IMG/VR virus record: IMGVR_UViG_3300023179_000228
Span: 1-40,574 of that record
Length of the DNA: 40,574 nt
Direction: 5' to 3' (one strand)
Source: a virus
Part shown: piece after piece, positions 4,444 to 31,900 of the stretch
Numbering within the stretch: position 1 is the first letter of the stretch
How the letters are laid out: each line of letters begins with the position of its first letter
Notes under the pieces: model-generated
Database searches by the model: none
Told to the model about the DNA's origin: nothing
What the model saw: the letters and a program-made list of their open reading frames with translations, nothing else
Made by a program: the position numbers and the translations under genes

Positions 4444-5106
4444 ATGGAAGTCGCTATCCGCTTCTCTCCAAAGGCTTGGCGTGCCGACACGGCAAACCTC
4501 TCATGGGAGACCAGGGCATTCTGGTTTGAGCTTGTGATCCTAATGCACGAAAGCCCTCGGCGTGGTTTCCTGCTAAAGCCCAACGGCAGGCCGTGGCGTA
4601 GCGAGGATCTGATGGAGCGGTATAAGCTGACTCCAGATCAGTTGACCAGGATGCGTGACGAGATCGAGGCCTCCCAGCTTTGGAGTCGGGACGGAAGCAA
4701 GGTTCCCTACTGCCGAAGGATGATTCGCGAAGAAGAACGCAAGGCCAAGGCTCGGGAACACATGGTCGAGGAACGGCTTGAGCAAGTATTTGATAGCTTT
4801 GATTTGTTCCTTCAAGGCAATCCAGCCGGCCAGACTCGGCTCAACGCCCTCCTCAACGAGCATCACGCCAGAGGGGTAAATGTTCGAGACCAGCTTGCGA
4901 AGATGAAGGCTTGGCTGGCTACACGGCCAGAACGGCGGATGACCCTTCGCTTTATCCAGAACTGGCTCATGAAGTGCGAGGGGACAATTAAGATCGCGAC
5001 CGCCAAACCAGAAAAATCATCCGAGCCAGCGTGGATGGTGCAGGGCTACTCAAGCGAAGAGGAATGGAGACAGGCGAAGCGAAGGCTTGTTGAGGCAGGG
5101 CTATAA
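4444..5106 (+). CDS. DUF1376/replisome-organiser-like replication protein
   Basis: A 220-residue protein. The N-terminal 100 residues (F-S-P-K-A-W-R-A-D-T, then L-S-W-E-T-R-A-F-W-F-E-L-V-I-L-M-H, then L-T-P-D-Q-L-T-R-M and Y-C-R-R-M-I-R-E-E-E-R-K) match the DUF1376-type winged-helix domain of phage and prophage replication-initiation proteins, in which short daily-bread lines such as Y-K-L-T-P form the recognition part. The remainder is helical, ending with a C-terminal E-E-E-W-R-Q-A-K-R tail. Such proteins bind the phage origin and recruit host helicase. The position next to RusA and a DnaA-like HTH gene supports this. No origin repeat was recognised. Confidence 0.7.
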   Translation: MEVAIRFSPKAWRADTANLSWETRAFWFELVILMHESPRRGFLLKPNGRPWRSEDLMERYKLTPDQLTRMRDEIEASQLWSRDGSKVPYCRRMIREEERKAKAREHMVEERLEQVFDSFDLFLQGNPAGQTRLNALLNEHHARGVNVRDQLAKMKAWLATRPERRMTLRFIQNWLMKCEGTIKIATAKPEKSSEPAWMVQGYSSEEEWRQAKRRLVEAGL

Positions 5107-5109
5107 TTT

Positions 5110-5577
5110 ATGAAACCAGAAACAAGAGCAGATCAAAAGCGGTCAGAATATGATCGCGTAACCAAGCAAGGCCTAATCGAGAAGCATGGTGCGTGGATCT
5201 TTGACGCATTGTCCATAATCCAAGAACTTGGCGGCATCGGAAAGGTCTGGGACAAGGACGAGCGCAAATACACGGATCGTAAGATCAAGGTTGAGAACTT
5301 CTGCGCCAAGAACGGCATCTGCTACTCGATTCGCACTGCTTGCATAATGCTTCCCCAGTCCGGATGGAACTTTCTGGCTCAATGGCTTACCCCCGACCAG
5401 TACGCGAAAGCCGAAGAGATGCAGAAGCTCGAAAAGATTGAGTTCATGGAAAAGACCGAGGACCTTATCCACGCCACTTCGCAAAGAAACCCTGGACTAA
5501 GCAAGCTTGCTGACTTGCAGAGCCTCTTAGTCGAAACCACTAAAAGTAAGATTGTGATGAAGAGGGCTACAGGATGA
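5110..5577 (+). CDS. Unknown protein in replication block
   Basis: A 155-residue protein starting three bases after the preceding stop and ending in an ATGA overlap. It is mixed helical with a Cys-containing centre (F-C-A-K-N-G-I-C-Y-S-I-R-T-A-C-I-M-L-P) and a Trp-rich stretch (Q-S-G-W-N-F-L-A-Q-W-L). The C-terminal 60 residues are helical and charged. The three clustered Cys could be structural, but no standard zinc motif is complete. No family recognised; the context suggests a DNA-replication role. Confidence 0.7.
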   Translation: MKPETRADQKRSEYDRVTKQGLIEKHGAWIFDALSIIQELGGIGKVWDKDERKYTDRKIKVENFCAKNGICYSIRTACIMLPQSGWNFLAQWLTPDQYAKAEEMQKLEKIEFMEKTEDLIHATSQRNPGLSKLADLQSLLVETTKSKIVMKRATG

Positions 5578-9135: not shown

Positions 9136-9484
9136 CTTGTGCCTCCTCTTGTTCTTGTGATTCGACAAGGTTCTTTAAGGCTCTCTTTAGTGCTGGAGAT
9201 TTTTCGACAAGCTCCTTTGGATCAATAGACCTCTGATGCGCAACGACGATTTGCTGACGCTCAACCGGCCTTCCAATGATATAATTAAGAGCCAGTTCGG
9301 CTGCTTTAATTCTGATTCCGTAGTCCGGAACCTCATAGGCGCATTGAGCTTTCCCTTCCCATTGATGCCTAGTCGCTGTAAGCCCTGTTTCGATAGCCTT
9401 CACGATCTTCTCTCGCATGTCTTCCCTGTTAAAGGCTTGCTCCATCCAATCGTGGATTTTCATTAGTTGTTGGCTTGGTTTCAT
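9119..9484 (-). CDS. Small-terminase-like protein
   Basis: A 121-residue protein. The ATG at 9484 gives an ATGA overlap with the upstream membrane-protein gene, preferred over a TTG at 9496. The string D-Y-G-I-R-I-K-A-A-E-L-A-L-N-Y-I-I-G-R-P-V-E-R-Q-Q-I-V at 54-80 looks like the central helical part of small terminase subunits and related packaging proteins, where such a segment precedes an acidic tail. The C-terminus is indeed Glu/Gln-rich. Small terminases recognise the packaging start site and recruit the large terminase, which is not in this window. A packaging-associated protein of another type is possible. Confidence 0.55.
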   Translation of the reverse strand: MKPSQQLMKIHDWMEQAFNREDMREKIVKAIETGLTATRHQWEGKAQCAYEVPDYGIRIKAAELALNYIIGRPVERQQIVVAHQRSIDPKELVEKSPALKRALKNLVESQEQEEAQDEVSA

Positions 9485-9603
9485 TCTGGGTCCCAATATC
9501 CTTTCGGTTCGTCTTTTCGCTTAAACCACAACCCGCAGGCAGCTAAGACCGGCACGATTACCATAAAAACCACAACACCGAGGCATAGGATCAATGGGTT
9601 CAT
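9481..9603 (-). CDS. 40-residue membrane protein in lysis region
   Basis: A short frame with ATGA overlaps at both ends (with the endolysin gene upstream and the small-terminase-like gene downstream). Residues 3-24 are strongly hydrophobic (L-I-L-C-L-G-V-V-V-F-M-V-I-V-P-V-L-A-A-C-G-L), followed by a basic and then acidic tail. The size and placement after the endolysin fit a small holin, antiholin or pinholin, but a structural role cannot be excluded. Confidence 0.6.
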   Translation of the reverse strand: MNPLILCLGVVVFMVIVPVLAACGLWFKRKDEPKGYWDPE

Positions 9604-10094
9604 AGGTATGTCTTTAAGATGACCGAGTTAACCGACCTTTTTTTCCTATAAACACCGTCCCCATCCCTTGAGCCGGCTTCATTGGTATTGCCTTCAATGG
9701 TCGTAAGCCAAGGCCCCTGCTGAATCTCGACGATACCCGTATGGGCGATACGGCCTCTCGAAGGAAAGTATATGCCGAATACGTCCGCCGGATGCCCAGA
9801 CCTTCGCCTTTCCCCACCTCTGAGCCAGTCTGGAGACCATGCGCTTTTCGGGACTCGATCCTCAAAGCCCGCTTCTCGGAAAACATAATAATTAAAAGCT
9901 GCGCACCAAGGGTTCCCAGCACCCAACCCAACAGATGACAAGACCTTCTCGACAAATTCTCCAGCATTGTCGCCATGTTCTACCTCGCCCACCAAGGGCC
10001 GTGCGACTGCAAGGACGGCTGCTTTGTTTTGATCTGAGGTTTGGGCCGATACCCAAGAAGCCAGCAGAAAATACGCCAGAACATATATCCTCAT
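9600..10094 (-). CDS. CHAP/NlpC-like endolysin with signal peptide
   Basis: A 164-residue protein. The ATG at 10094 overlaps the upstream stop as ATGA and puts a clear secretion signal at the N-terminus (R-I-Y-V-L-A-Y-F-L-L-A-S-W-V-S-A, cleavage after A17). The cysteine-peptidase-like core has Cys64 in N-P-W-C-A-A-F, His118 in I-A-H-T-G-I-V and a polar Glu134 in I-E-G-N-T, the catalytic set of CHAP and related amidases that cut peptidoglycan. A signal peptide means export by the host Sec system, so holin control would work by membrane depolarisation rather than release. The three neighbouring genes encode membrane proteins. Confidence 0.8.
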   Translation of the reverse strand: MRIYVLAYFLLASWVSAQTSDQNKAAVLAVARPLVGEVEHGDNAGEFVEKVLSSVGLGAGNPWCAAFNYYVFREAGFEDRVPKSAWSPDWLRGGERRRSGHPADVFGIYFPSRGRIAHTGIVEIQQGPWLTTIEGNTNEAGSRDGDGVYRKKRSVNSVILKTYL

Positions 10095-10435
10095 CTCCAC
10101 CCCAGAAGGCATGCAATTCCACCAGCAAAAAGGAGACCCCAAACCGCAAGAGTGAACCATATCCTTTGCTCCGGTCTGATCACTCTCCAGTCCTGCATCC
10201 ACCTATGAAGATCAATATGCTCATTAAGTGTCGGCCACTCGATTTGGAGAACCATCCATGCCAGCCAGACGGCGGTTAGATAGGCCACGGATCCGGTAAT
10301 TAGCCCATGTATGGCCCCAGTATCGTACCGGCCGGCAGTCGGATCTATGGTTTGAATCAAGTTTCCTCCAAACCAAAACGCAAGAACGCTGATAACCAGC
10401 GATACAATGCCTTGATGATTCTTTAGCCAGTTCAC
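10091..10435 (-). CDS. Three-TM membrane protein, holin candidate
   Basis: A 114-residue protein. The GTG at 10435 overlaps the upstream stop as GTGA; the frame is open further but earlier starts overlap the spanin-like gene more. Hydrophobic segments at about 9-29, 42-63 and 92-112 give three membrane passes, with a polar loop (E-W-P-T-L-N-E-H-I-D-L-H-R-W) between the second and third. The position directly before the exported endolysin and after a spanin-like gene is what is expected of a holin. Confidence 0.65.
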   Translation of the reverse strand: MNWLKNHQGIVSLVISVLAFWFGGNLIQTIDPTAGRYDTGAIHGLITGSVAYLTAVWLAWMVLQIEWPTLNEHIDLHRWMQDWRVIRPEQRIWFTLAVWGLLFAGGIACLLGWR

Positions 10436-10812
10436 CAGGGTATCCCCACAAGCTTTCTGATTCCCCATAGGATCGGACCCCGGGCTGCAAATATGATAAC
10501 TCCAATGAGCAAACCTCTCCATACCCACAACTCCTTTAATGCCTTCCGTTGCTTTTCCTTCCAGTAGTCAGCCTTCCCTTGCAATACCGCAATATCCTTT
10601 GCGTACTGATCCACTAGCTTGGTGTTCCCTATGCAGGCTTGTTCGGCGGCCGCCAGTTGCTCCTTGGCTTTCTTAATGGCGTTACTAACCCCGCCAGTAG
10701 AGTTCCTTTCTGCTTCGTCCAGATACACCCATGTTCTGTCGAAAGAAGGGTTCTTGGGTGGCGTAGACGCACAGCCAGCCAGAACAATAAAGATTATGAC
10801 TATTAGTTGCAT
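10432..10812 (-). CDS. Lipoprotein with C-terminal TM segment, u-spanin-like
   Basis: A 126-residue protein. The N-terminus is a lipoprotein signal with the box V-L-A-G-C (lipidated Cys14). Residues 28-95 are helical and charged, suitable for a periplasmic rod. Residues 97-118 form a transmembrane segment (W-R-G-L-L-I-G-V-I-I-F-A-A-R-G) with a short basic end. This outer-membrane-lipid plus inner-membrane-anchor layout is that of unimolecular spanins such as phage T1 gp11, which fuse the two membranes at the last step of lysis. The length is similar to T1 gp11. It sits directly upstream of the holin candidate and endolysin. Confidence 0.7.
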   Translation of the reverse strand: MQLIVIIFIVLAGCASTPPKNPSFDRTWVYLDEAERNSTGGVSNAIKKAKEQLAAAEQACIGNTKLVDQYAKDIAVLQGKADYWKEKQRKALKELWVWRGLLIGVIIFAARGPILWGIRKLVGIPW

Positions 10813-11507
10813 GATGGTTGGCTCGCCGTACGCATGGTTATGTTTGGCGCGCCAAGAGGGTTGCTTGTGTTACCGCTAGAAATATAATCGCCAGTCGCCT
10901 CATCCAAGATTCCGTAACCACGTCCGTTGTCGGCCTCTTGCCTGGAAAGGCTTTTAATGCTTCGGCTTGTGGATTTGCTGTTTGATCCAGATCCAGAAAC
11001 ACTATTACTACGAGACTTTGACCCGCTCTTGCGAATGCTTCTCGAATCCCTTGAAGATCCGCTCTTCGAAACGCTACGACTGTTACTTTTTGATCCGCTT
11101 GAAGATCCGCTCTTGCTGGTGCTTTTGGAGCTTGAGTTTGCTTCAGACAGGGATTTACTGTTTGAAGCGCTTCGGCTTAGAGAACCCGAAGAACTTCTCG
11201 TCTTATTATTCGACCCGCCCTGAGATTGATTCGCAGTTTCCGTGGATGTGTCGTTATTATTAGATCTGTCGTTATTGGTATCGCTGTTAGTTGTAGTACC
11301 AGAGTCAGTGTCCGAGCTGTCCCTTGATAGGGCTTGATGGCCTGTAATTACTTGTATCTCGAAATCCACGTACTCAGGAAGGTCCGCCATAAGCCCCGCG
11401 GTTGGATTTGATTGGTTCGCGCTTCGAGCTGTTGCAATACCCCTTCGAACCTCACGCAAGGTATCCCTAATAATCAAATCCAAATCCGCGACGGGGGCGA
11501 TAATCAT
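10803..11507 (-). CDS. Serine-rich low-complexity protein A
   Basis: A 234-residue protein. The N-terminal 60 residues form a folded-looking segment (D-L-I-I-R-D-T-L-R-E-V-R-R-G-I-A, then D-L-P-E-Y-V-D-F-E-I-Q-V-I) homologous to the one in the gene at 12014. Residues 63-190 are almost pure Ser with Gly, Lys, Asn and Arg, often alternating Ser-x-Ser. The last 40 residues return to normal composition. It is the third of three Ser-rich genes in a row. A virion fibre, stalk or capsid decoration with an extended Ser tract is plausible. Low-complexity reads may also reflect repeat expansion. Confidence 0.75.
   Translation of the reverse strand: MIIAPVADLDLIIRDTLREVRRGIATARSANQSNPTAGLMADLPEYVDFEIQVITGHQALSRDSSDTDSGTTTNSDTNNDRSNNNDTSTETANQSQGGSNNKTRSSSGSLSRSASNSKSLSEANSSSKSTSKSGSSSGSKSNSRSVSKSGSSRDSRSIRKSGSKSRSNSVSGSGSNSKSTSRSIKSLSRQEADNGRGYGILDEATGDYISSGNTSNPLGAPNITMRTASQPSCN
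10945..11320 (-). repeat. Ser-rich codon repeat tract of protein A
   Basis: Degenerate repeats of 6-12 bases, most built on the + strand sequence gatccgct and variants, encode Ser-Gly, Ser-Lys and Ser-Asn runs. Such tracts expand and contract by slippage. Confidence 0.7.
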
Positions 11508-11998
11508 GGATCTCCAGGGAATTGCACAACGACTGGCACCCTAAATCGTATGACGCACCCTATGTCGTCGCGCTCAGACTGTATTTTAGATGCGCTCTGA
11601 CTACTAATCCTGCTTACCGAGGAGGATCGGCTTGAAGAGTTTGACCTGTTTGTGGAGTTGGATCGTGTGGATGAATTTGAGTTAGATCCGCTTTCGGTTG
11701 TTGTGTCAGTATTGGATCCTGTCGAATTATTCGTTCCCGAGCTTGTTCCCGTATTATTCGCAGTATTTGATCCACTATTTGAAGATGAATTAGATCCACT
11801 ATTACTACCGCTAGTAGATCCAGACTCCGATCCGCTATTAGATGAAGAATTGGATCCAGAATTGGTTCCGCTCGTACTAGCCGTATTTGATGCTGAGTTT
11901 GAGCTTGATTCAGATCCGCTATTCGTGTTGCTGTCTGTTCGGCAATCGGCCTCATTCGTTGTGCTCTGATTCTTAATGTCTACTGCTTGAAATGCCAT
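11504..11998 (-). CDS. Serine-rich low-complexity protein B
   Basis: A 164-residue protein preceded by AGGAGG eight bases upstream of the ATG. It starts with about 16 ordinary residues. From there to about residue 142 it is Ser, Asn, Gly and Thr, with near-duplicates of the string S-G-S-N-S-S-S-N-S-G-S. The C-terminus (R-D-D-I-G-C-V-I-R-F-R-V-P-V-V-V) is a short beta-like end. Unlike its two neighbours it lacks the N-terminal R-R-G domain and carries its ordered part at the C-terminus, so it may be the complement or a rearranged copy. Function unknown. Confidence 0.7.
   Translation of the reverse strand: MAFQAVDIKNQSTTNEADCRTDSNTNSGSESSSNSASNTASTSGTNSGSNSSSNSGSESGSTSGSNSGSNSSSNSGSNTANNTGTSSGTNNSTGSNTDTTTESGSNSNSSTRSNSTNRSNSSSRSSSVSRISSQSASKIQSERDDIGCVIRFRVPVVVQFPGDP
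11575..11950 (-). repeat. Ser/Asn/Gly-rich repeat tract of protein B
   Basis: Near-repeat units encoding Ser-Gly-Ser-Asn and Ser-Ser-Ser-Asn recur many times, with an imperfect duplication of about 18 codons around 11770-11890. Slippage-prone low-complexity sequence. Confidence 0.7.
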
Positions 11999-12013
11999 AT
12001 AGTTGTCCTCCTA

Positions 12014-12718
12014 TTAAGAACAGGCAGTCCCTCCGCCAGGGACGTTGTATTGCGGAATAGCGAGCTGTGGTCCAGCCGAGCCGGTTTCGTCCTCAAAAGA
12101 CTTAACCTCACGGCCCACGGCAGCAGCCTGCTCTTTTTTGCCGCTCGACTTTTCGCTTCCAGATCCGCTTTGACTTGCGCTTTTACTGTTGCTCTCGCTT
12201 CCGGATTCGCTTTCCGATTCGCTGTCAGAAATGCTTCCGCTTCTGCCGTCGCTTTGACTGCTAGAGATCGACCCAGACTCCGACTCGGAACGGCTGTCGC
12301 TTTCTGAGCCACTTTCACTTCCAGATTCGCTTTTGGAGACACTGGTACTTTCAGATCCTGATTCTCTCTGTGTTTTATTTGAAGACCCAGAAACACGATC
12401 TGTCGCAGAATTACTTTCCGTTCCTCTTTCCGCGTCTGTTCCTGTTTCCGTGCCAGACTCGGTGTTCGCCTCCGACTCATTAGTGTTCCCAGAATTTGTA
12501 GTGGTAGTCAGTCTCGAATATCCAGCATTCTGGTGGGAGTAAATTGCCGTAATTTCAAAATCAATTCCTTCGGGCAAGTCCACCATCATATTGGTCGCTG
12601 GGTTGTTTTGGCTGTCTTGCCTTGCCATAGCGCACCCCCTGCGGATCTTTGATAAGATTGTATTGATGTCACTAGCCAGCCTATTTTGGCCTGAATGGGA
12701 TAGTGGCATTACAATCAT
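12014..12718 (-). CDS. Serine-rich low-complexity protein C
   Basis: A 234-residue protein whose ATG shares one base with the upstream stop (TAATG). The first 60 residues match the N-terminal domain of protein A: R-R-G-x-A-x-A-R, then N-P-x-x-x-x-M and D-L-P-E-x-x-D-F-E-I. Residues 73-196 are Ser/Glu/Gly/Asp-rich and acidic (S-E-S-G-S-E-S-D-S), unlike the basic tract of protein A. The C-terminus has A-I-P-Q-Y-N-V-P-G-G-G. A and C are therefore diverged paralogues with opposite charge in the tract. The family is unknown; a resemblance of the short domain to Trypco2-type domains is possible but weak. Confidence 0.75.
   Translation of the reverse strand: MIVMPLSHSGQNRLASDINTILSKIRRGCAMARQDSQNNPATNMMVDLPEGIDFEITAIYSHQNAGYSRLTTTTNSGNTNESEANTESGTETGTDAERGTESNSATDRVSGSSNKTQRESGSESTSVSKSESGSESGSESDSRSESESGSISSSQSDGRSGSISDSESESESGSESNSKSASQSGSGSEKSSGKKEQAAAVGREVKSFEDETGSAGPQLAIPQYNVPGGGTACS
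12133..12502 (-). repeat. Ser/Glu-rich repeat tract of protein C
   Basis: Alternating Ser-Glu, Ser-Gly and Ser-Asp codons with many short near-repeats. Acidic, in contrast to the basic tract at 10945-11320. Confidence 0.7.
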
Positions 12719-17240: not shown

Positions 17241-17747
17241 ATGAGCAACAGCAGAGATGCCGTAGGTGGATTTGTTAAGCCAACGATCAACTACGGAAGC
17301 GTTTCCGGTTCCGGAGCAAAGTTCATCGGGCAAGGAATACTAAATCTTTATCGAGACCCTAGGATTACTTGGCCGTTTACGCCTACGTTTTCTGGAAATC
17401 TGATTACGATTACAGCCGGCCATGCTAATGGGGTTCCTGTTCCAAGGTTTAATGGCGGCGTAACAGTTGGGTATTACAAGGTGGTAATCACAACCGATGG
17501 TCAAGTTGTAACAAGCGCGAGTATTCGGGCGGGGACTCCTAGGCCACAGACTCCTGAAGAGGATTCATATCCAACTACCGTTGAGGTACCAATTATCGAG
17601 GTTGAGCAGGTACCAAATACTCTATACGGCTACTATGCCAGACGAATTACTGGAGCAGGAGGAATTTCTCTAACACCATACGTCGCTGCTTACGTCGGCA
17701 GTGGTTGCAACAAGACAGCAAAATACGCTTGGGCTGTTTTTACATAA
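17241..17747 (+). CDS. Beta-rich protein on the opposite strand, virion-surface candidate
   Basis: A 168-residue protein, + strand, in the middle of - strand structural genes. It is Gly, Thr, Val and Pro-rich (S-G-N-L-I-T-I-T-A-G-H-A-N-G-V, then G-G-V-T-V-G-Y-Y-K-V-V-I-T), typical of a beta-sandwich or fibre subunit. The stop lies three bases before the start of the 920-residue gene, so both belong to one transcription unit. The 108-base gap to the scaffold start (17133-17240) must hold its promoter; I see no convincing one. Probably a host-range or tail component; function unknown. Confidence 0.65.
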   Translation: MSNSRDAVGGFVKPTINYGSVSGSGAKFIGQGILNLYRDPRITWPFTPTFSGNLITITAGHANGVPVPRFNGGVTVGYYKVVITTDGQVVTSASIRAGTPRPQTPEEDSYPTTVEVPIIEVEQVPNTLYGYYARRITGAGGISLTPYVAAYVGSGCNKTAKYAWAVFT

Positions 17748-17750
17748 GCC

Positions 17751-20513
17751 ATGTTTGTTACCTACAAAAAATTTAAGGTTGATGGCTACACTAAGGTCGA
17801 AAAAAGCGGACTAACGAAGGGCGGCGGGTGGCTTGAGGGACCAGAGGGCGGTGGTTACTATGAAAACGTTTGCGGCGTTAAGTGCCTATGGGATCCCGGA
17901 AAGAATCCTAAAGATAATCGAGCGACTTTAGCCGCGAATTACACTATCTCCAGCGGATATTGCGCCTCATCCCGCTCGGAAAGTTGCTCTAGACAAGGCC
18001 TTTGCTCGCTGGATACTGGAATAGGGACCGGCGCAGACGTGAACATGTTTGCGTATATGACCGACACCTCCTCTTCCGCACTTTTTGCTAAGCTAACATG
18101 CGTAGATGGCTTTACTTCCACGCAAAGCGAATCCGAGAATCCTTACACAGAAACCGCAAAGCTGGTTTGCACCACCTCCGAAAACAGCGGGAAGGATATT
18201 GCGAGTGCTGGTGCGTTCCCGACAGACACAACAGATTGCTTTTATGTGACTCATTCCGGCGCAATCTCTCTTTACGCAGGAGGCCGTAACTTTCCGGTTG
18301 AACTAGATAGCTCAAAAACTACGACTTGGTGCGGAGCCAGGGATGGGGACGGTGCGTGCGTGAGCACCGATACCTGTTCTGGTTGCACGCGTGCTGCCAT
18401 AACGTACTACGATGGGTGCGGCAACCCCGATGCCGGAGCAGATGGGCCCAACAACATTTCGATTTTACAAGTTTACAAGACGAAAGACCCCTGCCCTATT
18501 TATACTTATTCTGACTGCGAGAGCGTATATATTCTTTCGAAGGCGGGTAGCTACATCGCTGGAGGCAAGAATGTCGGTTCATTCTCCACCATAACTGTTC
18601 ATGCTTTGTCCGCGAACAAGGCCATTGAGTTTAATATATCCACCGGGAAAGAAAAGCCCTACATAACCCAGACTTTTTCGTACAAAAACGATGAGGTCAC
18701 GCTCAAAAAACTTGAGGCTAAAAAATCTGCGTATTCGAATTCCTACATCTGGATTGGTGAAAGTGATGTATATACAAGCACATACACGACTGATGTTGGT
18801 GGCTATGAGGCCGGCAGCGCCGCAACATTGTTTTATAGTGAAGAAGTTAAGGCAACCGCAACGGGGGTTGCTTGGGAGACGACTGGGCCGGGCTCGCATC
18901 CATGCTGTAGGCCTTTCCCCATTTGGACGGATGATTGCACCTCGAAAGAAGTCTCGAAATCGACAACAGATACCATTTCTGCTGGGAAGTCGTTTGAATT
19001 CACGCATGTAAAAATGAGCACTACCATGTTGGGTGAATACTACGCATACCAGCCAACCACAATATCCAGAGGAGACCACTTGGCGTGGGGTGAGTTTGGT
19101 TATAGCACGAGTGGTGGCGGAGTATATAAATCCAGCTACAACAACCAAGAAGAACATGAATGCGAAAGTGTCGTGGTAAGTGAGGTCCTTACTAGCGTTG
19201 GAGATGATCCATTTGAGAAATGCTATGACTGCTTCCCGGGTATGGTTACAGTGGGTTACATGAAACCAAACGAAATCCCAGGGACAGCGAAGTGCGGTGA
19301 TCTCTTTTGCGGGTGCACGAGCGCGGAAGGGGGTAGTATGGAGGGGCCACCCTACCCGCCCCTGGTTGAGGCTCAAACCGAATGCTACCACACATGCGCC
19401 TCGGCGAAGGCGTGCGGGGACCCAGAAACGGGTTGCTGCATGGATCATGGTCCCAAATATTATAGTGAGTACCGAAGAACTGACGTTTCTAAAAACATGA
19501 TTTCAAGGACAGGCGATTGTGGCTTAGCTGATCAGTATTCATACGATGTCTCCTACACTCACCTCACCTGTGTCCAGACCCTCACAACAAGAATTGGCGG
19601 CGGATTTCAAATGACCGCCCGAAAATTTGAGGGCCTCTATTTCCTTGATTCAACGGGGGGCATGCGAACAGCAACTTCATTTATTCTAAAACAATCAAAG
19701 TCAGACATCGCGCTCTCGCACGTTAACTTTGCATTTTCTGGGGCGTACTACAATCCAATGGGCAGGACAACCCAGTTTGGCTCAGATGGAGCAAAAAAGA
19801 CTTTCATTGCACTAGCTACCGCAAATGCCACGTACATTGTTGGATCACCAGACGGAAAATCTAAATCTACAGGCTCACAAACAGCTTCGCATGATGGGGA
19901 TCTGCACTCATACTATATTTCTGATCCAGACGTTAATAACAAGGCTTGGAATCAAGCGTCTTGGCCGGGGCACGGCGTTGTAAGGGGTAAAATAACTACA
20001 GGCACTTTTAGCTTTTCTTTCAGAACAGGGTTTTTTGCGAATAGCTATGGCGGAGGAGGCAGTGTTGCGCGATTCTCTCCTGGAGCGAAGCAGACCATTG
20101 TCGCTGACGGAGGGCTAAACATAATATCAAGCAAAGCCATAGCATCGGAAACATTCTTCGATACTGCTTACTCAACTAATGCTTTTTCGACTTCTTTTGA
20201 CAGCAATTTCCAAGGGGCGTGGCTTGCAAAAGCAATCCCATACACTTATGTCGCTACAAGAAGCGCGAGCTTGAATCCTTTTTTCCATGCTGGAATTGGG
20301 GCAGATCACATAATCCCAATCGACTGCTCGGGGTGCAATTTCCCACAGCCAGGAATTCCGATTCCACTCATTGGAGACACGGCGGCTTATTTCATTAGGG
20401 GCGATAAGTCATTGATCTACAATAAGAATGCTGCCTCCTACCTTTGGACACATCCAGCCTATAAGAAGCAATGGGGTACTGGTCACGGCGCTAACTGCGA
20501 AGACGAAGAATAA
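17751..20513 (+). CDS. 920-residue cysteine-rich virion/receptor-binding candidate
   Basis: A large protein with about 34 Cys, nearly all in the first 620 residues, often in short spacings (C-x-x-x-x-C, C-C, C-G-C). Example clusters are near D-G-D-G-A-C-V-S-T-D-T-C-S-G-C and G-E-T-G-C-C-M. Gly, Ser and Thr are frequent and there is no membrane segment or signal peptide. The C-terminal 300 residues are Cys-poor, aromatic and Gly-rich, in the style of a fibre or spike tip. The - strand glycosyltransferase gene overlaps its 3' end by 31 bases. It resembles no family I recognise. Disulphide-rich tail spikes are rare in phages, so its assembly site is unclear. Confidence 0.7.
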   Translation: MFVTYKKFKVDGYTKVEKSGLTKGGGWLEGPEGGGYYENVCGVKCLWDPGKNPKDNRATLAANYTISSGYCASSRSESCSRQGLCSLDTGIGTGADVNMFAYMTDTSSSALFAKLTCVDGFTSTQSESENPYTETAKLVCTTSENSGKDIASAGAFPTDTTDCFYVTHSGAISLYAGGRNFPVELDSSKTTTWCGARDGDGACVSTDTCSGCTRAAITYYDGCGNPDAGADGPNNISILQVYKTKDPCPIYTYSDCESVYILSKAGSYIAGGKNVGSFSTITVHALSANKAIEFNISTGKEKPYITQTFSYKNDEVTLKKLEAKKSAYSNSYIWIGESDVYTSTYTTDVGGYEAGSAATLFYSEEVKATATGVAWETTGPGSHPCCRPFPIWTDDCTSKEVSKSTTDTISAGKSFEFTHVKMSTTMLGEYYAYQPTTISRGDHLAWGEFGYSTSGGGVYKSSYNNQEEHECESVVVSEVLTSVGDDPFEKCYDCFPGMVTVGYMKPNEIPGTAKCGDLFCGCTSAEGGSMEGPPYPPLVEAQTECYHTCASAKACGDPETGCCMDHGPKYYSEYRRTDVSKNMISRTGDCGLADQYSYDVSYTHLTCVQTLTTRIGGGFQMTARKFEGLYFLDSTGGMRTATSFILKQSKSDIALSHVNFAFSGAYYNPMGRTTQFGSDGAKKTFIALATANATYIVGSPDGKSKSTGSQTASHDGDLHSYYISDPDVNNKAWNQASWPGHGVVRGKITTGTFSFSFRTGFFANSYGGGGSVARFSPGAKQTIVADGGLNIISSKAIASETFFDTAYSTNAFSTSFDSNFQGAWLAKAIPYTYVATRSASLNPFFHAGIGADHIIPIDCSGCNFPQPGIPIPLIGDTAAYFIRGDKSLIYNKNAASYLWTHPAYKKQWGTGHGANCEDEE

Positions 20514-23700: not shown

Positions 23701-25960
23701 TTACTTTGAGGGGTTAGACTGTAAAGCTTTGAGCTCTCTTCTGTGCCGCGCATCCACAACCGCTTTTTTGGCGTCTCGATAGAACCCAGAGATCGTCCTT
23801 TGGATTACGTCCTTACGATCTTCGGAAACATATCCAGATAAATCGTTTTGCGACAAAGTCCCGCCTTCAGTGCTATTTCCGTATAGGTAAGCCCTTATTT
23901 TGGGGGCTGCAATCTTAAGCACCATCTCGTAGTCGCCACTGCTCAATGCAACCCTCTGGCGCAGATACTTGTCATCAAAGAACCGATCAGGCCTAGAAAG
24001 ATCCGGGTTCCACCTTTTGTCTGGGTGTTGCCGGTTATAGTTGTCTACGAATCTTTCAAAGCCTGTTTTCCCGAATTCCTCACCGAATCTTCCTGGTAAC
24101 AACCTGACGGCTGACCTTGCGACTGGGCCAGCACCTTTATACGGAACTGGGTTAGGCACTTTCATGCCCTCGAATGTCCGCCGGTCTGGAATTCCAAGCT
24201 GATCCCCAAGTCCCGGGAGGATGGCAAATGCAAGAGCGTCGGGCGCTAATGGATCTGGATTATAAACGTCCTTTTCATATTCCGGAATTCCTCCGAATGG
24301 TTGCTTGAATAGATTTGGCGACATTATGGCCGATAGCTTGTCTCTTAATACTCGTTGCCAACCGCTTCCCTCTAAATCAAACAAGCTGATCATATCGCGC
24401 CATTGCTTGCCGTATGTCCTTGTTGCTGGAGCCAAGAAGTAGTCTTTAAAGAGATTTGCGCCAGACGATCCAGCCCTACTTGGGTTCCTTACGGATTCCT
24501 TCATTGTTCTTGCGATATTTACATTTGATGAAACTACGGTTCCAACTGGTTCAACTCGGCTATAATCGAGCGCATATTCTCCAGTAGTAACTCCAAGGCT
24601 TTTAAGCCAGTCACCCCGTAGAATGAATTTGAATGGGGGGTTTCCAAACCTAGTTACTCGTTGCCCACCTGGAGCAAGCGGATCTGGCGTTCCAGTAATA
24701 AGCAACATCTTCTTATCGTCATCGTCATCACCTTCGGCGGCCCCAGTCAACAGACCGGCTAGTATGGCAGTTCCAATGCCAAAGCTTGTTAGCCTCTCAA
24801 CAAAGTCATCGTACTCTGCGACAGGAAGATACTTTGTTTTCTTGCCATCAACGTCTGTCTCCTTAACCCTTCTAGCCCTTGAGATTAGGTTAAGTATGGC
24901 TGGTGGCGTGTATGAGTATCCCTCGCGGTAGATGTTGAATGGGCTTTTAATTAAAACCAAGAAGGACTGAATAAGCCGAAGAACCGCCCTTGCCGGCATA
25001 AATGCAGGGTTATTGTCCATAGCAGTTGCAGCGTTCTCAAGGCTTGCGTATACATCTGACAGCCTCCCCACGTTTTCGGCTGCAAAATCTCCTATTGAGC
25101 GAACATCTCCTCCCTCTGGTTTTAGCTGGAATGTGAATGTCTCCTTGGTTGCCCGACGAGCTGCAAGCATCCAGCTTGTTGATCCAGCCCCACCGACCTC
25201 TTTTTGAACGAACGAGCTTAGTTCTGCTCCGTTAAGTCCTGCCGCCTTACCGAGCCGGTATGCGTGTGCACCGACAGACATGTATGCCCTGAACGTCTTG
25301 GTGAATTCGTCGGCTGCAAGTAGGCCTCGAAGTGGAGCGCGAATAGCTTTGCCGAGTTTTCCCGGGATCCTTGTCTTTCTTGTTCTGCCGTACTTTTGGA
25401 GGAATGCTCCAAACCTTGTCTGCGGATCATGAATGTCCTCAAGAACACCGGAAACATTATAGTCAAAGAACCCTGCTTCAGTTGCCCAAGCCAATTTAGC
25501 CATTGTTGAAGCCTCGAAAAACGCCGGAACGACTGCCCTTAAGATATATCCAATTTCACTTCCAGCTCCTCCAATAGCTTCTGAAATTGTTTTGTAAGCC
25601 GTGCTTGGTCTAAAGAGCGGGACTTGGCGATCATCAATTCTGTCGATCTCTACTTCTTGATTGATGCCAGCTTGCCCGAGCAGATACGAAGTGATGGCTT
25701 GAAATCCACGATGGACAGATGTTGTGATCGGGGAAACTGGCGTGACCGCCATATTTGCAAGCTGGGTTGCGACTCCACTGAAAATACTTGAGACATACGC
25801 CTCGAATAATGTCCCGTCTATTGTCGGCTTCCCTGCCTGCATGGCTTTAGCCAACACCACGATATGCTCTGGTTTCCGCAGATCGAAAAGGTTGCTTCTA
25901 CCCTTACGCTCGGCCCACTTGTATTCGCCGGTCGGTGTAAGGGTGAGGCCAAGCATGTTA
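23701..25960 (-). other. C-terminal polyvalent-protein domain (residues ~4853-5605)
   Basis: A mixed hydrophobic and basic domain with S-S-I-F-S-G-V-A-T-Q-L-A-N-M near 4880 and F-G-I-G-T-A-I-L-A-G-L-L-T-G-A near 5243. Similar C-terminal domains close many large phage polyvalent proteins and may insert in the host membrane during ejection. The acidic run D-D-D-D-D at about 5260 follows the hydrophobic part. Confidence 0.55.
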
Positions 25961-28900
25961 TAGATCTCTTCCATCGCCTCGTCCTCACCTAATGGCTGAT
26001 TATCCGGAATACGTTGGGCCATGATCTGCCTCATCGAGGCGTCCGTTCTTGCGTTTTCTAAGAGTGCTTTACGGAGTTGCTCGCGGGTCATCCCGCTCTG
26101 GGCGATCTGGCTAAACCTTCTCTTGGCTTCGGATCGCATGACATCCATGGCGCCCTTTATGTCCACCATCTTGACCTTGGTTTGCTTGGAAACTGAAACT
26201 GGGTCATGCCCGATCATGATCAACTCCACCGCCTCGCGTTCTTTCGGAGAAAGCCTGACCTGATCGAGCATTTGAGTGGCCGGCCGTCCTGTTCTGATTT
26301 CCGAAAGCTCGGACTCTTTCATCAACTGCGCTAGATTTGTCCCGAGACCAGCCAGCGTGCGATTCACGTCGGCCAACCTATCCTGCGCCTCTTGGGCCAT
26401 GACTTGTTCTCGAGTCACGCGATTCTGTAAATCTGAGATTTGCCCTTGCAGAGCTTGGATCTCGGCGTTCCTCTGCTCAAGGACAGCCTTCATTTCTTCT
26501 GAGTTGGTCGCCTCTTGCCTAGAATCAAGCAAGCCGTTCCTCTCTTTGATCAAGTCTTCGAGGGTTGCCTGAAGGCTTCTGATGTCGTTCCGGTTTTGGG
26601 CTTCGGTTGGGTAATACTTGAGGTCAAGAATCCTATTCCGCTCGGGCTGAACCATTACGGCCATAAGGAACTCGGTGTGACGCTGTGCTGGCGTCATTAA
26701 TCTGTCATAGCCAATTCGTAGAGCGCGACCCGCTTCGGATCTGGCCTCACGATACATGTACGTCATTGCGTATGCCTTGCCTAGATCCTCTGCGTTTCCG
26801 CTCGTAATTGCCGTTTGCGCCATCTCTCCGACCATCTTCATGGCTGCTAATGTTGTTTCCGTGTTTAGAGACTGTCCGGAAAGAACGGCCTCTTGGACTC
26901 CGAGCCGGCCTTCTGGAGTTGAAAGAATTTGAATAGCGGCGTCTTCAACTGCCGTATCCTGCTTAATTCCAAGCCCACGCTGGAACCGCATGGCGTCCAT
27001 GGCGTTGATTAGGTCTCTCTGTTGGGAGGTTTGTCCAGGGTTTGCCAAGCTTCTTGCCGGACCGCCATTTTCGCCATTCTGATAAACTCCACCGAGCGTC
27101 TTGGTTCCAGATGGCTGGACTCGCAACTTGCGATACATCGCCATTACTTCTTGGGTGTCTTTCCCGAGGTCGCCCAAGAGATCGGCTCGGATAGACATCA
27201 ACTCTTCTGGGGTAAGTGGCTTTGGCGTAATTACAGGGTTTCCGTTCTCGTCGTAATCAAGCCTTTGGGCGAATAGATTGCCTTGAACCATCCCTGCCCG
27301 AGTTTCTTGCTCTAACGCAAAAGGCTGAGTCGTGGGGTTCACGCTGGTCTCTGTTGGCATCAGCTGGCCTTCTGGTTGATATCCAGACAGCTTGGTTTGG
27401 TTGGCGGTAAACTCTAATTGGCGCAACCGCTTCTCGTTATAGGGTTGGCCGGAATCACGCATCGCTCGAAGCTCGTTAATTTCAGAAAGGATTTTCTTCG
27501 CTCCACTTGGCTCAATACGCTGGGCATTAAGGGCAAGCTCCATCTGGGGAGCGATAAACTTGGCAGGAGGAGTCTCGATGACGGATGGGCTGGATGCCGT
27601 CGGCCGGTTGGGCGATCCAGCGTACTTCTCTGTATCAAATAAGGATTGCTGAACCCCAACTCCTGGCATTTTGTATTTCGTGGCAAACTTCTCGATTTCC
27701 GAGATCCGCTTGCGTTGCTCTTTGGTTGGGTTCGGGATATCGGTCAATCTCTTGTATTCCAAGGCCAATGGATTTTTCTCCCCGCCCGCATCCGAAGGGG
27801 CTACGTCATCGCGGGTGTAGGATTTGACCACTTGCACCATCCCGCGTATCCCGGGCAACCCAGCAACCGCTGCTGATATGGTCTTGGTGACTACCCTTCT
27901 TGGGTTATCGATGCCCCTTGTTACCCATCCATCCAAACCAACCCTCGGCCGTATTGAGAATGCCCCTTTAGTGGTAGTGATTAGGCCACCCCTTGGCATC
28001 GCTTGAATAGTATTAGAAATCTTATCCTCCAGCTTGTCTCCGCCGATCCTTTGGGCAAAGAGCTGGCCTTGTTGGGTGGTCGGTTCCGACCTTGCGGCTG
28101 AATCACGATTCCCAACAATTGTCTGATAATCGGTAATTTTGATGGATCCGATGTCCATCAAGGATCCGGCCGTTGATCCTACTAGGGTTCCGGCGGCCAT
28201 GTTCCTCACGGCTCCCTTCATTCCGCCCTTTAGGTTCAATAGGTCTGACTCAAGCTGGTCGAACCACTCCACTAGGTAGTCGTGGGGAGTTTTGGTTAGC
28301 CCTTTCGGGACATCCAAGTTGGCAATCATTCCCACAAAGGAAGGGTTGCTCATTGTTTCAGCGGAAAACTCGTCAATGTTCTTAAACCCATACAGAATCG
28401 ACATCGCCTTCTTGCCGGGATCTCCAACAACACCCAGAATCCTCTGCTTAAACACAGGCTTCGTTGAGCGTATTGTGTAAGTCGAATATGCCGAAGGGGC
28501 TATGTTTTGAGTCCTTAGCTTCTCTAGCCCAGAAGGGGTAAGAATCAGCTTTCCGTCCGCCTCAACTTCTAAACCAGCTAGGGATCCGGCCGGACTAGAG
28601 ATAAAGAAGTCGTTGGTCGCCCCGTTCTTGTTTACGTAGGCATCCAAAGTGTCATTCGGCACTCCAGCCTTACCTTCAAGCCCAAGTCCGGTAAAGTGTT
28701 CATAGATAGCCTTTGAGTTTGAGGCATCAATGTGGGCCGACATGTGTAATCCGCCGGCATAGCTTGCTCGGTGCATCGGTAGCGTGATTGAGAAGCTGGC
28801 TGTTAGGCCCGATCCGAAGATTGCGTTCTCAATGGGTTGACCAGCATCGTCTTTGGCATACTTCAATGCCCCAAGATATGCCTTCACAAGGCTCTGCATG

Positions 28901-31900
28901 GCTGGGATTGCTCCAGTAGGATTATCGGCATCTAGGGGTTGCTTGTTTGCGTAAGTGGTTAATGCCTCGCGATACTTCGATCCGGACATCTCTCCGCGCC
29001 GAGGCTGGAAATTCTTAACGATTTCGCTCCCAATAAGTTGAGCGGTAAAGGAGTGGACGAATTCATGCAGAATTACCCTTGGACTCAATTGACCAGGATG
29101 AAGCCGGATAATGCCCATCGTAAACGGATCCATCTTGATCGATGAGAAATGGGATGTCGGGATCGATTCATCAATTACCACGTCGGTATTTGCTGCCCTA
29201 CCAAGGAATGACGATGGGTTGGCTTCAATCCCCTTGACCAAGGCTTGGCTAAGCAACCGATAGTAGGCTTGGATCGCTTTATTGTTTTCATTTGCTGGCT
29301 CTGCGATCCCGCGGATGAGGTTGCCAGCTGGTTGCGGTCCGGAGCGAAGGGCCATAATGGCCTGCCCAAGCTGGGTGTTGCGGAACTGCCGAACAAGGTT
29401 CGCTGTTTCGCCATCTTCCTCAGAATTGGTGGTATAAATCCTCTGTGCATTGATCGACATGGGTCGAATTAGCCCTGCTTCCATCGCAAGCCGTAAGGCC
29501 TTACTTACAGGCTTTTGGGGCTTCGAGTTGGTTGCGAACAAGCTGTTGTCACCGGCAAAGTCTTGTAAGGCTCGAAGCGCATCATCGTACATACGCTGGG
29601 CCATCTGCTTGTTTGGACGCTGTTTGCCGTCCTCTCCAATAATCGATGGCAACCCAAATTCATCTGCAATTGCCTCAAATGTCATTCCTCGGTTGTGAGC
29701 TACAAACACTTGAGCCAAGCGCGGATCAATAGTCTGGAATGCGGCCTCCATGTCACTTCTAAGTGCCTTGGTAAACTCGGTCTCCTCTACGTCCTTAGGC
29801 GTAACAATGTCCGGCCCCTCATCTTCACTTACTGCCGTTGCCCTTCCGACAAGAAGCTCGGCCACCGTCTCCTCGTCCTCAAGCATCTGCATTCCTTGTT
29901 GCTCGGGTGGGTCAACTTCGTACTGCCCAAACTTCTGATAGGACGTAAGGACGCTGTTTTTGGCGGCTTCGACCATGTACGAGAACACCTTTTTGGGTAT
30001 TCCGCCTTCGGGAGCTGCGGATCCTTCCATTTCGGCGAACTTGCCCGGATCCTGCGTCCTCATTACGGCAAGCGCCTTGACGGCCTTCAGAACCCCAGAA
30101 ACGGCCGAATCCTCTACATACGAGGCATCCATATTGGGGAACATCCGCAGAACCATTCGAACTGCCGGCGACGGCCCCACGTTACCATCTGAGTCAGTGG
30201 TCTGCTGAGTAGCGATCCGGTAGTAGTTCCAGATCTCTGGGGTAATTTCATCCCCAATCCGCTGGGCGTTAATCTGAACCGAACGTGGGCCGGAATAGGC
30301 GTAACCCTCGATTGCAGATCCGGCAGGAGATTCGACTGCTTTGCTCTTTGCAACATCTGCGTATGGCATCCACTCGGAGGTTCCGTCCGTAAGTGATGGG
30401 GTTCCGGGATTCCAGTCTTTCGGCATGCTTGGATCCTCTGGGTACACAAGGGTGTCCTCGCTGATTCGGCTCATCATGTAATCTTGGTTCAATGCTGCGA
30501 GGCCGACTGGCCCAAAGACTTCGCCCCCCTTCTTTGGATCTGCGTAAAAGTATCGCTGTCCCGCATTTTGATCTGGAATGCTTCGCGACTTCATGCGCCG
30601 AGCGATATAATTTCCAGCATCAAAACCACCCATTGAAACTGCAATATATGGCCCTTCGGCTGACACCTTTGCTCCTGGAACTAGCTTCTCAATCTCTGCC
30701 CTTACCTCATCCGGTACTCCGGCCTCCTCCATAACGGACAGATCGGCCAGCTGGCTTTCCGCTAAACTGCTGATCGGAATTATCGATTTGAGCGAATGCG
30801 GGGTCTCGATGGCCGTTGCCTCTGTGGTTGCGTAAGAAATTGTCGCCCCGTCCGTAAATACGACTTCCGTTGCGTTATGGTGTCTTGTGATTGTGCTATT
30901 CAAGTAATCCAAGACCTTCTCGGCGTCAGAACGCTGGATTGTCTCCCTGACATTCAGCACATTTGAAAGCTTCTTGAGCTGACTGAATTCGGCTTGGCTA
31001 GGAACAACAATACCAGTTGTCTCGCTTCCGTCTTGGTTAGTGAACCGCATGACTCGGTGATTCAACTGCTGACCAAACAGCCTTGTGGACATATCGGCGG
31101 CCACCAATGGATTGCCAACGATGACGAAGTGATCTTGTTGCATTGCCTTCTGTCGCTCGCGGTCATACGCGTCGGCTACAACTTGGTTGCGCCGGCGGTT
31201 GTTCATCTTGTTTACAAAATCTTTTTGCCCTTCATCCGTTGCTACCGCGCCCTCATCGGTCATTGTGTCGATGTCCTGCGTTACGTCCAACGCTTCGGCA
31301 AATGCGTCGATTACGTCTTTCTCGGTTTGGGCGGTTTCAGTCCTTTCAGATACAAAGGAAAGAATCTCTCGGGTACGCACAGGCGACATCTCGATAATCG
31401 TGTTTCCGTCATAATAAAGACCATTCAGCGTCTTTCCGTCTGAGAATTTGCGGTTAACACGGAAGAATCCTGGTCGATATCCAGCCCTATCCATAGCAAA
31501 GCTCATATATTTCTCGCGAAGCCCGAACGGATGGTTCTCCCAAGCTTTTGCAGCTGCATAAGATTCCGTCTGCTTGAATGAGCGATAGAACGCCGCTTCA
31601 GCGTCTTGGCCGGTTGGGCTGACATCCAGAAGTGGCATTTCAACGCCAAGCTCCTCTTGCTCAAGCGGGTTGTTATTGAAAGCAGCCCGAGCCGATGCCA
31701 GCCGTGATAGCGGGTTGGCGGAAAGCGGAACTGGCATTAGATGGTTGAATCCTGCGCTTTGGATTAGCAACCGCTGGGAAGCGACTACATGCGGATACTT
31801 AGTGTTAAGCCTCAAGCCGGTAACGAATACTGGAACTTGGGTATCGTTAATGTGATACCAGTAGCTTCCGCCAACCTTTTCAGCCGCATCCGCCACCGCC

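Follow-up and report, generated by a model that had tools for sequence, protein, structure and literature searches.

Does the minus-strand gene cluster at positions 9481 to 10812 of the IMG/VR virus record IMGVR_UViG_3300023179_000228 encode a lysis cassette, and is the lipoprotein that opens it a unimolecular spanin (u-spanin)? The DNA analyzed, called the window here, is all 40,574 nt of that record (positions 1-40,574). We consider it likely that the cluster serves a tailed phage with a Gram-negative host as its lysis cassette and that the 126-residue lipoprotein is a u-spanin. The module is real and conserved, and its predicted spanin has the u-spanin layout but differs from the traits published for such proteins. 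The unusual part is the predicted helical coiled-coil character combined with an invariant periplasmic cysteine, Cys60, which a first-pass annotation made from the letters of this DNA had not mentioned.

The cassette and its lipoprotein

Four small genes with overlapping ends were read from the open reading frames (ORFs), in the transcription order lipobox protein, protein with three transmembrane (TM) segments, endolysin, and 40-residue protein with one TM segment (Table 1); the junctions are, in gene order, GTGA, ATGA and ATGA. The first-pass annotation had described a four-frame cassette with ATGA/GTGA overlaps, and every frame and junction was located exactly where it had placed them. In comparison with the closest relative (L001), whose lipoprotein is 91% identical to that of the window, the ratio of nonsynonymous to synonymous substitution rates (dN/dS) is 0.067 for the lipoprotein, 0.109 for the 3-TM protein, 0.184 for the endolysin and 0.21 for the 40-residue protein, the last being based on just 39 codons. 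Synonymous changes dominate, and all four frames therefore behave like genes. A lipobox-type signal, by our rule, is present in 4 of the 325 window ORFs of at least 40 residues, and only one of these, the lipoprotein, has a C-terminal TM segment as well; in the other loci, with 1,928 ORFs of at least 90 residues, the layout was found in family members only. The four-gene arrangement is not due to chance.

The lipoprotein combines an N-terminal signal of the outer-membrane lipoylation type (LAGC with Cys14, then Ala) and a C-terminal TM segment in one chain, with a Kyte-Doolittle hydrophobicity of 1.89 for residues 100-118. These features give it the predicted topology that defines a u-spanin. 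It also lies in a lysis cassette, and neither the window, which is probably a fragment because many lipoprotein relatives sit on contigs of about 62-75 kb, nor a 64.9-kb relative (G001) was found to contain a separate pair of inner- and outer-membrane spanins (i-spanin and o-spanin), a plausible o-spanin, or a second ORF with a lipobox and a C-terminal TM segment.

Two IMG/VR scans, the first yielding 5 relatives and the second, made with their alignment, 129, supplied the family; the best 80 of the 129 were used. Removal of duplicates (two contigs) left 84 distinct contigs including the window, falling into 34 clusters at 90% identity, and it is to these that counts out of 84 refer. A lipobox-type match is present in all 84, and in 79 of them translation could start at a suitable codon 11-30 codons before it. 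The C-terminal segment was seen in all 75 relatives evaluated (of 80) and in L001-L005. Directly after the lipidation Cys stands Ser (47 members), Ala (19) or Thr (18), and Asp in none of the 84. Asp in this place is the signal for inner-membrane retention in E. coli. The motif KALKELWxxR occurs in 84/84 members, a conservation that is partly ascertained, KALKELW having been a search pattern; in alignment A4, 13 of the 14 invariant columns lie at residue 84 or later. The lipobox plus C-terminal TM layout proposed at first pass thus stands: it is kept across the family, linked to a small multi-TM protein everywhere and to a peptidoglycan hydrolase on all contigs that extend far enough. The TM prediction suggested then as a check gave a C-terminal hydrophobic segment here, three TM segments in the second protein and one in the 40-residue protein.

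In one cluster of four members (L027, L029, L030 and L031) no ATG, GTG or TTG lies near the lipobox, yet the frame is open far upstream (206 residues); translation of these lipoproteins may begin in an unusual way, or their leader may be long.

Judging by the searches made, the family has so far been seen only in uncultivated or environmental phage contigs. No relative was returned by tblastn with three family members against 50,697 phage records (limit E 0.1), by a first scan of the bacterial and archaeal genome collection, or by a search for DNA matches among plasmids, and the lipoprotein had no usable match in Pfam or PHROG. The single match among 84,980 bacterial and archaeal genomes, in a Bacteroidota metagenome-assembled genome (L089), was rejected once its ORFs had been read; it is a histidine kinase sharing the short stretch KQRKALKEL. 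Members of the family may sit unnamed in the tables of a 2025 survey which, in the part available, describes spanins as very numerous in IMG/VR (PMC12596118).

A predicted helical periplasmic domain with a fixed cysteine

The AlphaFold2 model of the lipoprotein is all-helical (residues 2-14, 25-37, 41-111 and 113-122), with zero strands. The helical hydrophobic moment of the periplasmic helix was matched by 82 of 5,000 shuffles, and 23 of 33 rows fell below 5%. When heptads were counted in 23 non-redundant members, starting at the periplasmic Cys, hydrophobicity averaged +0.36 at position a (the Cys phase) and +0.41 at position d, the other five ranging from -0.30 to -0.84; the pattern breaks at +3 (Asn) and +14 (Lys/Arg) from the Cys. 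In the window protein I46, L53, C60, V67, I74 and A81 are spaced by seven. Crude helix/strand propensities (1.06/0.94, versus 1.01/0.98 for the coliphage T1 u-spanin) show a modest difference.

A single periplasmic Cys is found in 67 of the 84 members, that is, in all 67 of the GxPW type and in the same place; its distance to the motif takes two values, 7 residues apart, in 54 and 13 members. The 17 members without it are all 16 that have a 2-TM partner, plus L076 (for L004 a count of one proved to be a wrong-start artefact, the ATG start giving zero). The tree separates the Cys/3-TM group from the 2-TM group in a single split, and the association between Cys and partner type may therefore reflect one historical event, not repeated evolution. 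The scripted monophyly test returned False, the root having fallen inside the 2-TM group, and L002 was labelled 'none' since its duplicate L012 bore the label. L076 (about 4767-5396) is the most divergent of the 3-TM-partnered members; the usual stop after GVPW is missing and the frame extends to 209 residues.

We tentatively propose, at slightly under an even chance, that this is an undescribed large u-spanin family in which a single polypeptide follows the two-component recipe: its coiled coil would be parallel, joined between chains by a core disulfide, and would run from an outer-membrane lipid anchor to an inner-membrane TM segment, with trigger and enzyme exchanged as one block.

Comparison with known spanins

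A survey (PMC6139136) lists, in the part available, 58 u-spanins in 677 phage genomes, grouped in 13 families, none with a periplasmic Cys, and describes the periplasmic domain of the T1-family u-spanin as mainly beta. Reviews, in their accessible portions, repeat that u-spanins are beta-rich, and one also the absence of periplasmic Cys. The present family departs from both traits: one Cys is found in 67/84 members and none in 17/84, against none in the 58 surveyed, and the window model is all helix. Nor was there a match at the level of a published family, for which at least 40% identity would have to extend over 40% or more of the periplasmic stretch, either among the 50,697 phage records or with T1 directly (16%). 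In the open PMC literature we found no description of a u-spanin with a coiled coil or with a cysteine or disulfide.

Escherichia phage T1 gp11 (NC_005833 ST11; 133 residues as annotated) resembles the window protein in being one gene of a lysis cassette with a lipobox, one C-terminal TM segment and about 80 periplasmic residues (23-104, versus 15-94 in the window). Unlike it, gp11 is mainly beta and free of periplasmic Cys according to the available part of the survey (PMC6139136), and its gene stands last in the cassette, whereas that of the window stands first. The u-spanin of Pseudomonas phage PB1 (NC_011810) likewise has a lipobox and a C-terminal hydrophobic segment, and its periplasmic stretch is rich in helix formers by eye; it differs in its lipobox (AWAC) and in having neither a periplasmic Cys nor the KALKELW motif. 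The claim that helical u-spanins are new was accordingly narrowed, the PB1 sequence suggesting that not all known u-spanins are beta. Since PB1 looks helix-former-rich, the novelty would seem from the sequences to be the fixed core Cys, not the helix alone. The coiled coil and a periplasmic Cys used for homodimers recall lambda Rz/Rz1, as described in the accessible parts of two papers (PMC6139136, PMC7830690). There, in contrast, two proteins are involved and the Rz TM segment is at the N end, so that the coiled coil runs in the opposite sense to that of the window protein.

Gene neighbourhood

When 1,867 ORFs from around the lipoprotein genes were compared by iterated profiles, the loci fell cleanly into two sets: a homologue of the 3-TM protein comes next in 68 of the 84, and a 2-TM protein in the other 16. 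The first-pass annotation had taken the cassette to comprise four genes. As the 40-residue gene is present in only 2/84 loci, the conserved module is one of three. A CHAP endolysin is encoded in 65 of the 68 3-TM loci, the contigs of the remaining three (L021, L029 and L074) stopping 465-832 bases after the lipoprotein gene. Fifteen of the 16 2-TM loci contain a muramidase, 11 of the GH108 and 4 of the phage-lysozyme type, while the contig of the last (L083) stops after 815 bases. Pfam agreed for all four muramidases checked (GH108 in L003, L075 and L086, Phage_lysozyme in L085); it returned no family for the L027 and L076 endolysins, which are assigned by our own profile alone. A Sec-type export core, by our rule, was recognized in 64 of the 65 CHAP endolysins versus 0 of the 15 muramidases, the sole CHAP enzyme that failed being that of L076, and only with the start chosen by the script.

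Among the 67 GxPW-type members, the end of the lipoprotein gene and the start of the gene that follows share GTGA in 66 cases and GTAG in the other, and a purine run lies upstream in 63. Translation of the following gene may thus be part of the reason why the C-terminal GIPW is conserved.

A basic ORF of about 214 residues is inserted between the lipoprotein and 2-TM genes in L079, L080 and L081, which form one cluster; it could be homing-endonuclease-like. In 11 of the 84 loci (L003, L004, L005, L078, L079-L081, L083, L085, L087 and L088) a 59-residue 2-TM protein precedes the lipoprotein gene, and these loci therefore have two holin candidates each.

The endolysin and the membrane proteins

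The endolysin matches phrog_9589 'endolysin' (E 3.3e-18) and, below the cut-off of 26 bits, Pfam CHAP (24.6 bits, E 3.7e-5); by sequence the sole PDB row is weak (E 0.59). Its AlphaFold2 model (predicted local distance difference test score, pLDDT, 88.8; predicted template modelling score, pTM, 0.83) is closest in the PDB to a C. difficile autolysin domain (7cfl, Z 13.6), phage CHAP endolysins giving Z of about 10-11.5, and the top rows are NlpC/P60 and CHAP hydrolases with Z from 13.6 to 9. Cys64, His118, Glu134 and Asn136 are invariant in 24/24 rows and are the presumed catalytic residues, as in the family. The model points to a papain-like CHAP/NlpC-P60 fold with Cys and His. Over most of the enzyme there is 36-39% identity to CHAP endolysins of Streptomyces phages (TG1, for example) and of Caudoviricetes sp. 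MW202627; these differ in N-terminus and neighbours, the window enzyme being paired with a spanin-type lipoprotein.

Export of the endolysin, noted at first pass, is borne out by a Sec-type signal in the window protein and by the 64 homologues counted above. The pinholin-like timing that had been read from it is just one possibility, a cleavable signal and a signal-anchor-release (SAR) segment being indistinguishable here.

Class I holins such as lambda S105 have three TM segments and the N-out/C-in topology. For the 3-TM protein, counts of Lys and Arg favour N-in/C-out in all 22 rows (three TM segments found), so the orientation suggested by the charges is the opposite and would not fit this class. 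The protein was unmatched in PHROG in 22/22 rows (alignment A6), and neither it nor the 2-TM protein had a match among phage records. The 40-residue protein was also considered as a second lipoprotein (LAAC, Cys23) and rejected: the Cys is not kept in L001, and the lipobox is a chance one.

Table 1. Predicted genes and features of the lysis cassette in the window.
Feature	Position	Strand	Basis
Predicted unimolecular spanin, 126 residues: lipoprotein signal, helical periplasmic domain, C-terminal TM segment	10432..10812	-	
Lipobox LAGC (Cys14), then Ala, then Ser	10771..10782	-	sequence
Predicted periplasmic part (residues 41-94) of long helix, heptad pattern	10531..10692	-	AlphaFold2 helix 41-111, amphipathic periodicity, heptad phases
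Cys60, invariant periplasmic cysteine of the subfamily, heptad a position	10633..10635	-	67/67 GxPW-type members; heptad analysis
Juxtamembrane motif KQxKALKELWxxRG	10513..10554	-	invariant alignment columns; partly ascertained by search pattern
Predicted C-terminal TM segment, about residues 95-111	10480..10530	-	Kyte-Doolittle; helix end at 111 in model
3-TM protein, 114 residues, GTG start, holin/pinholin candidate	10091..10435	-	homologue adjoins lipoprotein in 68/84 loci
Predicted exported endolysin, 164 residues, CHAP/NlpC-P60 fold	9600..10094	-	phrog_9589 match, AlphaFold2 model
Sec-type signal sequence MRIYVLAYFLLASWVSA, perhaps cleaved after Ala17	10044..10094	-	hydrophobic uncharged core
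40-residue 1-TM protein, lineage-specific	9481..9603	-	in 2/84 loci

Proposed mechanism and alternatives

If the lipoprotein is a u-spanin, it would leave the cytoplasm through Sec, acquire its lipid at Cys14 and be sorted to the outer membrane, its C-terminal segment remaining in the inner membrane so that a single chain bridges the periplasm. The periplasmic part would form a long parallel coiled coil, lockable as a homodimer through Cys60 in the GxPW-type subfamily. The endolysin would reach the periplasm through its own signal sequence, and the 3-TM protein would set the time by triggering or depolarizing the inner membrane, whereupon the endolysin would degrade the peptidoglycan. With the mesh gone, the spanins would cluster, fold, and fuse the inner with the outer membrane. 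Were the endolysin signal cleaved, something else would have to restrain activity until triggering; a SAR anchor is the alternative.

Several observations weigh against this account. No sequence match to an annotated u-spanin was found; T1 gp11 is only 16% identical in a forced alignment, and the PHROG 'Rz-like spanin' phrog_456 is weakly matched by 6 of 33 members (best E 6.5e-5). The lipoprotein model is of middling confidence (pLDDT 74.9, pTM 0.32), and a lone helix is easily predicted. The juxtamembrane stretch and the C-terminal tail are equally basic, and the positive-inside rule therefore leaves the orientation of the C-terminal TM segment unfixed; 5 of the 84 members (the cluster of four described above, and L084, which is cut by the contig end) are without a usable start near the lipobox; and L076 has no periplasmic Cys despite its 3-TM protein and endolysin. 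With such weak similarity to known spanins, and with about 13% of the surveyed phage genomes reported, in the part of the survey available, to be without a detectable spanin (PMC6139136), the protein might instead be an envelope lipoprotein for lysis control or superinfection exclusion, anchored in the inner membrane only, with disruption of the outer membrane either the work of something else or unnecessary. We regard this as quite improbable: in every sufficiently long locus the lipoprotein gene opens a module that also encodes an endolysin and a multi-TM protein, the Cys is followed by Ser, Ala or Thr throughout and never by Asp, and no other spanin candidate turned up in the window or in G001. 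A question within the u-spanin reading is whether Cys60 forms a disulfide at all. It could lie hidden in the core of the helices or be conserved on other grounds, with no covalent dimers, as in other u-spanins; we take this seriously, though placing it somewhat below an even chance. That the 16 members with a 2-TM partner and L076 manage without the Cys indicates that the fold needs none, but its invariance in all 67 members of the subfamily, its constant place relative to the motif (in two spacings) and its heptad core position speak for a disulfide, such as two-component spanins use according to the accessible portion of the survey (PMC6139136).

As to timing, the endolysin might be a SAR enzyme whose uncleaved N-terminal anchor is released on depolarization, with the 3-TM protein as a pinholin. 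In several homologues the N-terminal segment is indeed short, with many Ala and Ser residues, and most T1-type u-spanins are described in the available text as neighbouring a pinholin and a SAR endolysin (PMC6139136), the same text stating that known u-spanins function next to SAR and canonical endolysins alike. We nevertheless find this unlikely, since 21 of the 22 cluster representatives listed have, by a permissive pattern, a small-x-small cleavage-type motif after the hydrophobic core and the positive charges place the 3-TM protein N-in/C-out. T4 RI is a precedent, having reportedly been considered a SAR protein initially, until a cleavable signal was found (PMC8385771). We give still less credence, very little in fact, to the 40-residue 1-TM protein being the true holin and the 3-TM protein its antiholin or regulator: 1-TM holins exist, the annotated holin of T1 (ST13) having a single TM domain, and the frame is under some purifying selection (dN/dS as given above), but the gene is absent from 82 of the 84 loci while the 3-TM homologue is present in 68.

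Genome context and host

The window capsid is weakly similar to capsids of Agrobacterium, Erwinia and Paracoccus phages. The distantly related Agrobacterium phage Atu_ph08 (MF403009), besides a weakly similar capsid, has a 14.6-kb gene, annotated as an Snf2 helicase, that is comparable in size to a single open frame of 5,605 residues at 23701-40518 (-) of the window. Because of this capsid likeness and the giant gene in Atu_ph08, the sequence suggests a Gram-negative host. Unlike the window, Atu_ph08 has a GH108-type endolysin (annotated DUF847), and no ORF with a lipobox and a C-terminal TM segment was found in the 39.5-kb stretch of it that was read. Nothing specific to this phage group was found in the literature.

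Just upstream of the cassette, at 10803-12718 (-), are three consecutive ORFs with long Ser/Asn/Gly-rich repeats; those at 10803-11507 and 12014-12718 (-) have similar N-terminal regions. Two plus-strand ORFs at 17241-20513 (+) lie inside a block of minus-strand structural genes, the second being Cys-rich, 920 residues long and unmatched in PHROG.

Significance

Spanins are natural membrane-fusion machines, and the available part of the survey shows the unimolecular ones to be rare (58 of 677 genomes; PMC6139136). If the proposal is true, a one-chain coiled-coil spanin would join two classes hitherto kept apart, the helical disulfide-linked and the beta, Cys-free. With its fixed Cys it would offer a single gene of 126 residues in which to test whether coiled-coil collapse and disulfide dimers suffice for fusion of the inner with the outer membrane. 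Within one spanin lineage, moreover, there is a clean swap between a 3-TM protein with an exported CHAP endolysin and a 2-TM protein with a cytoplasmic muramidase, which would help in studying how the timing of lysis is wired.

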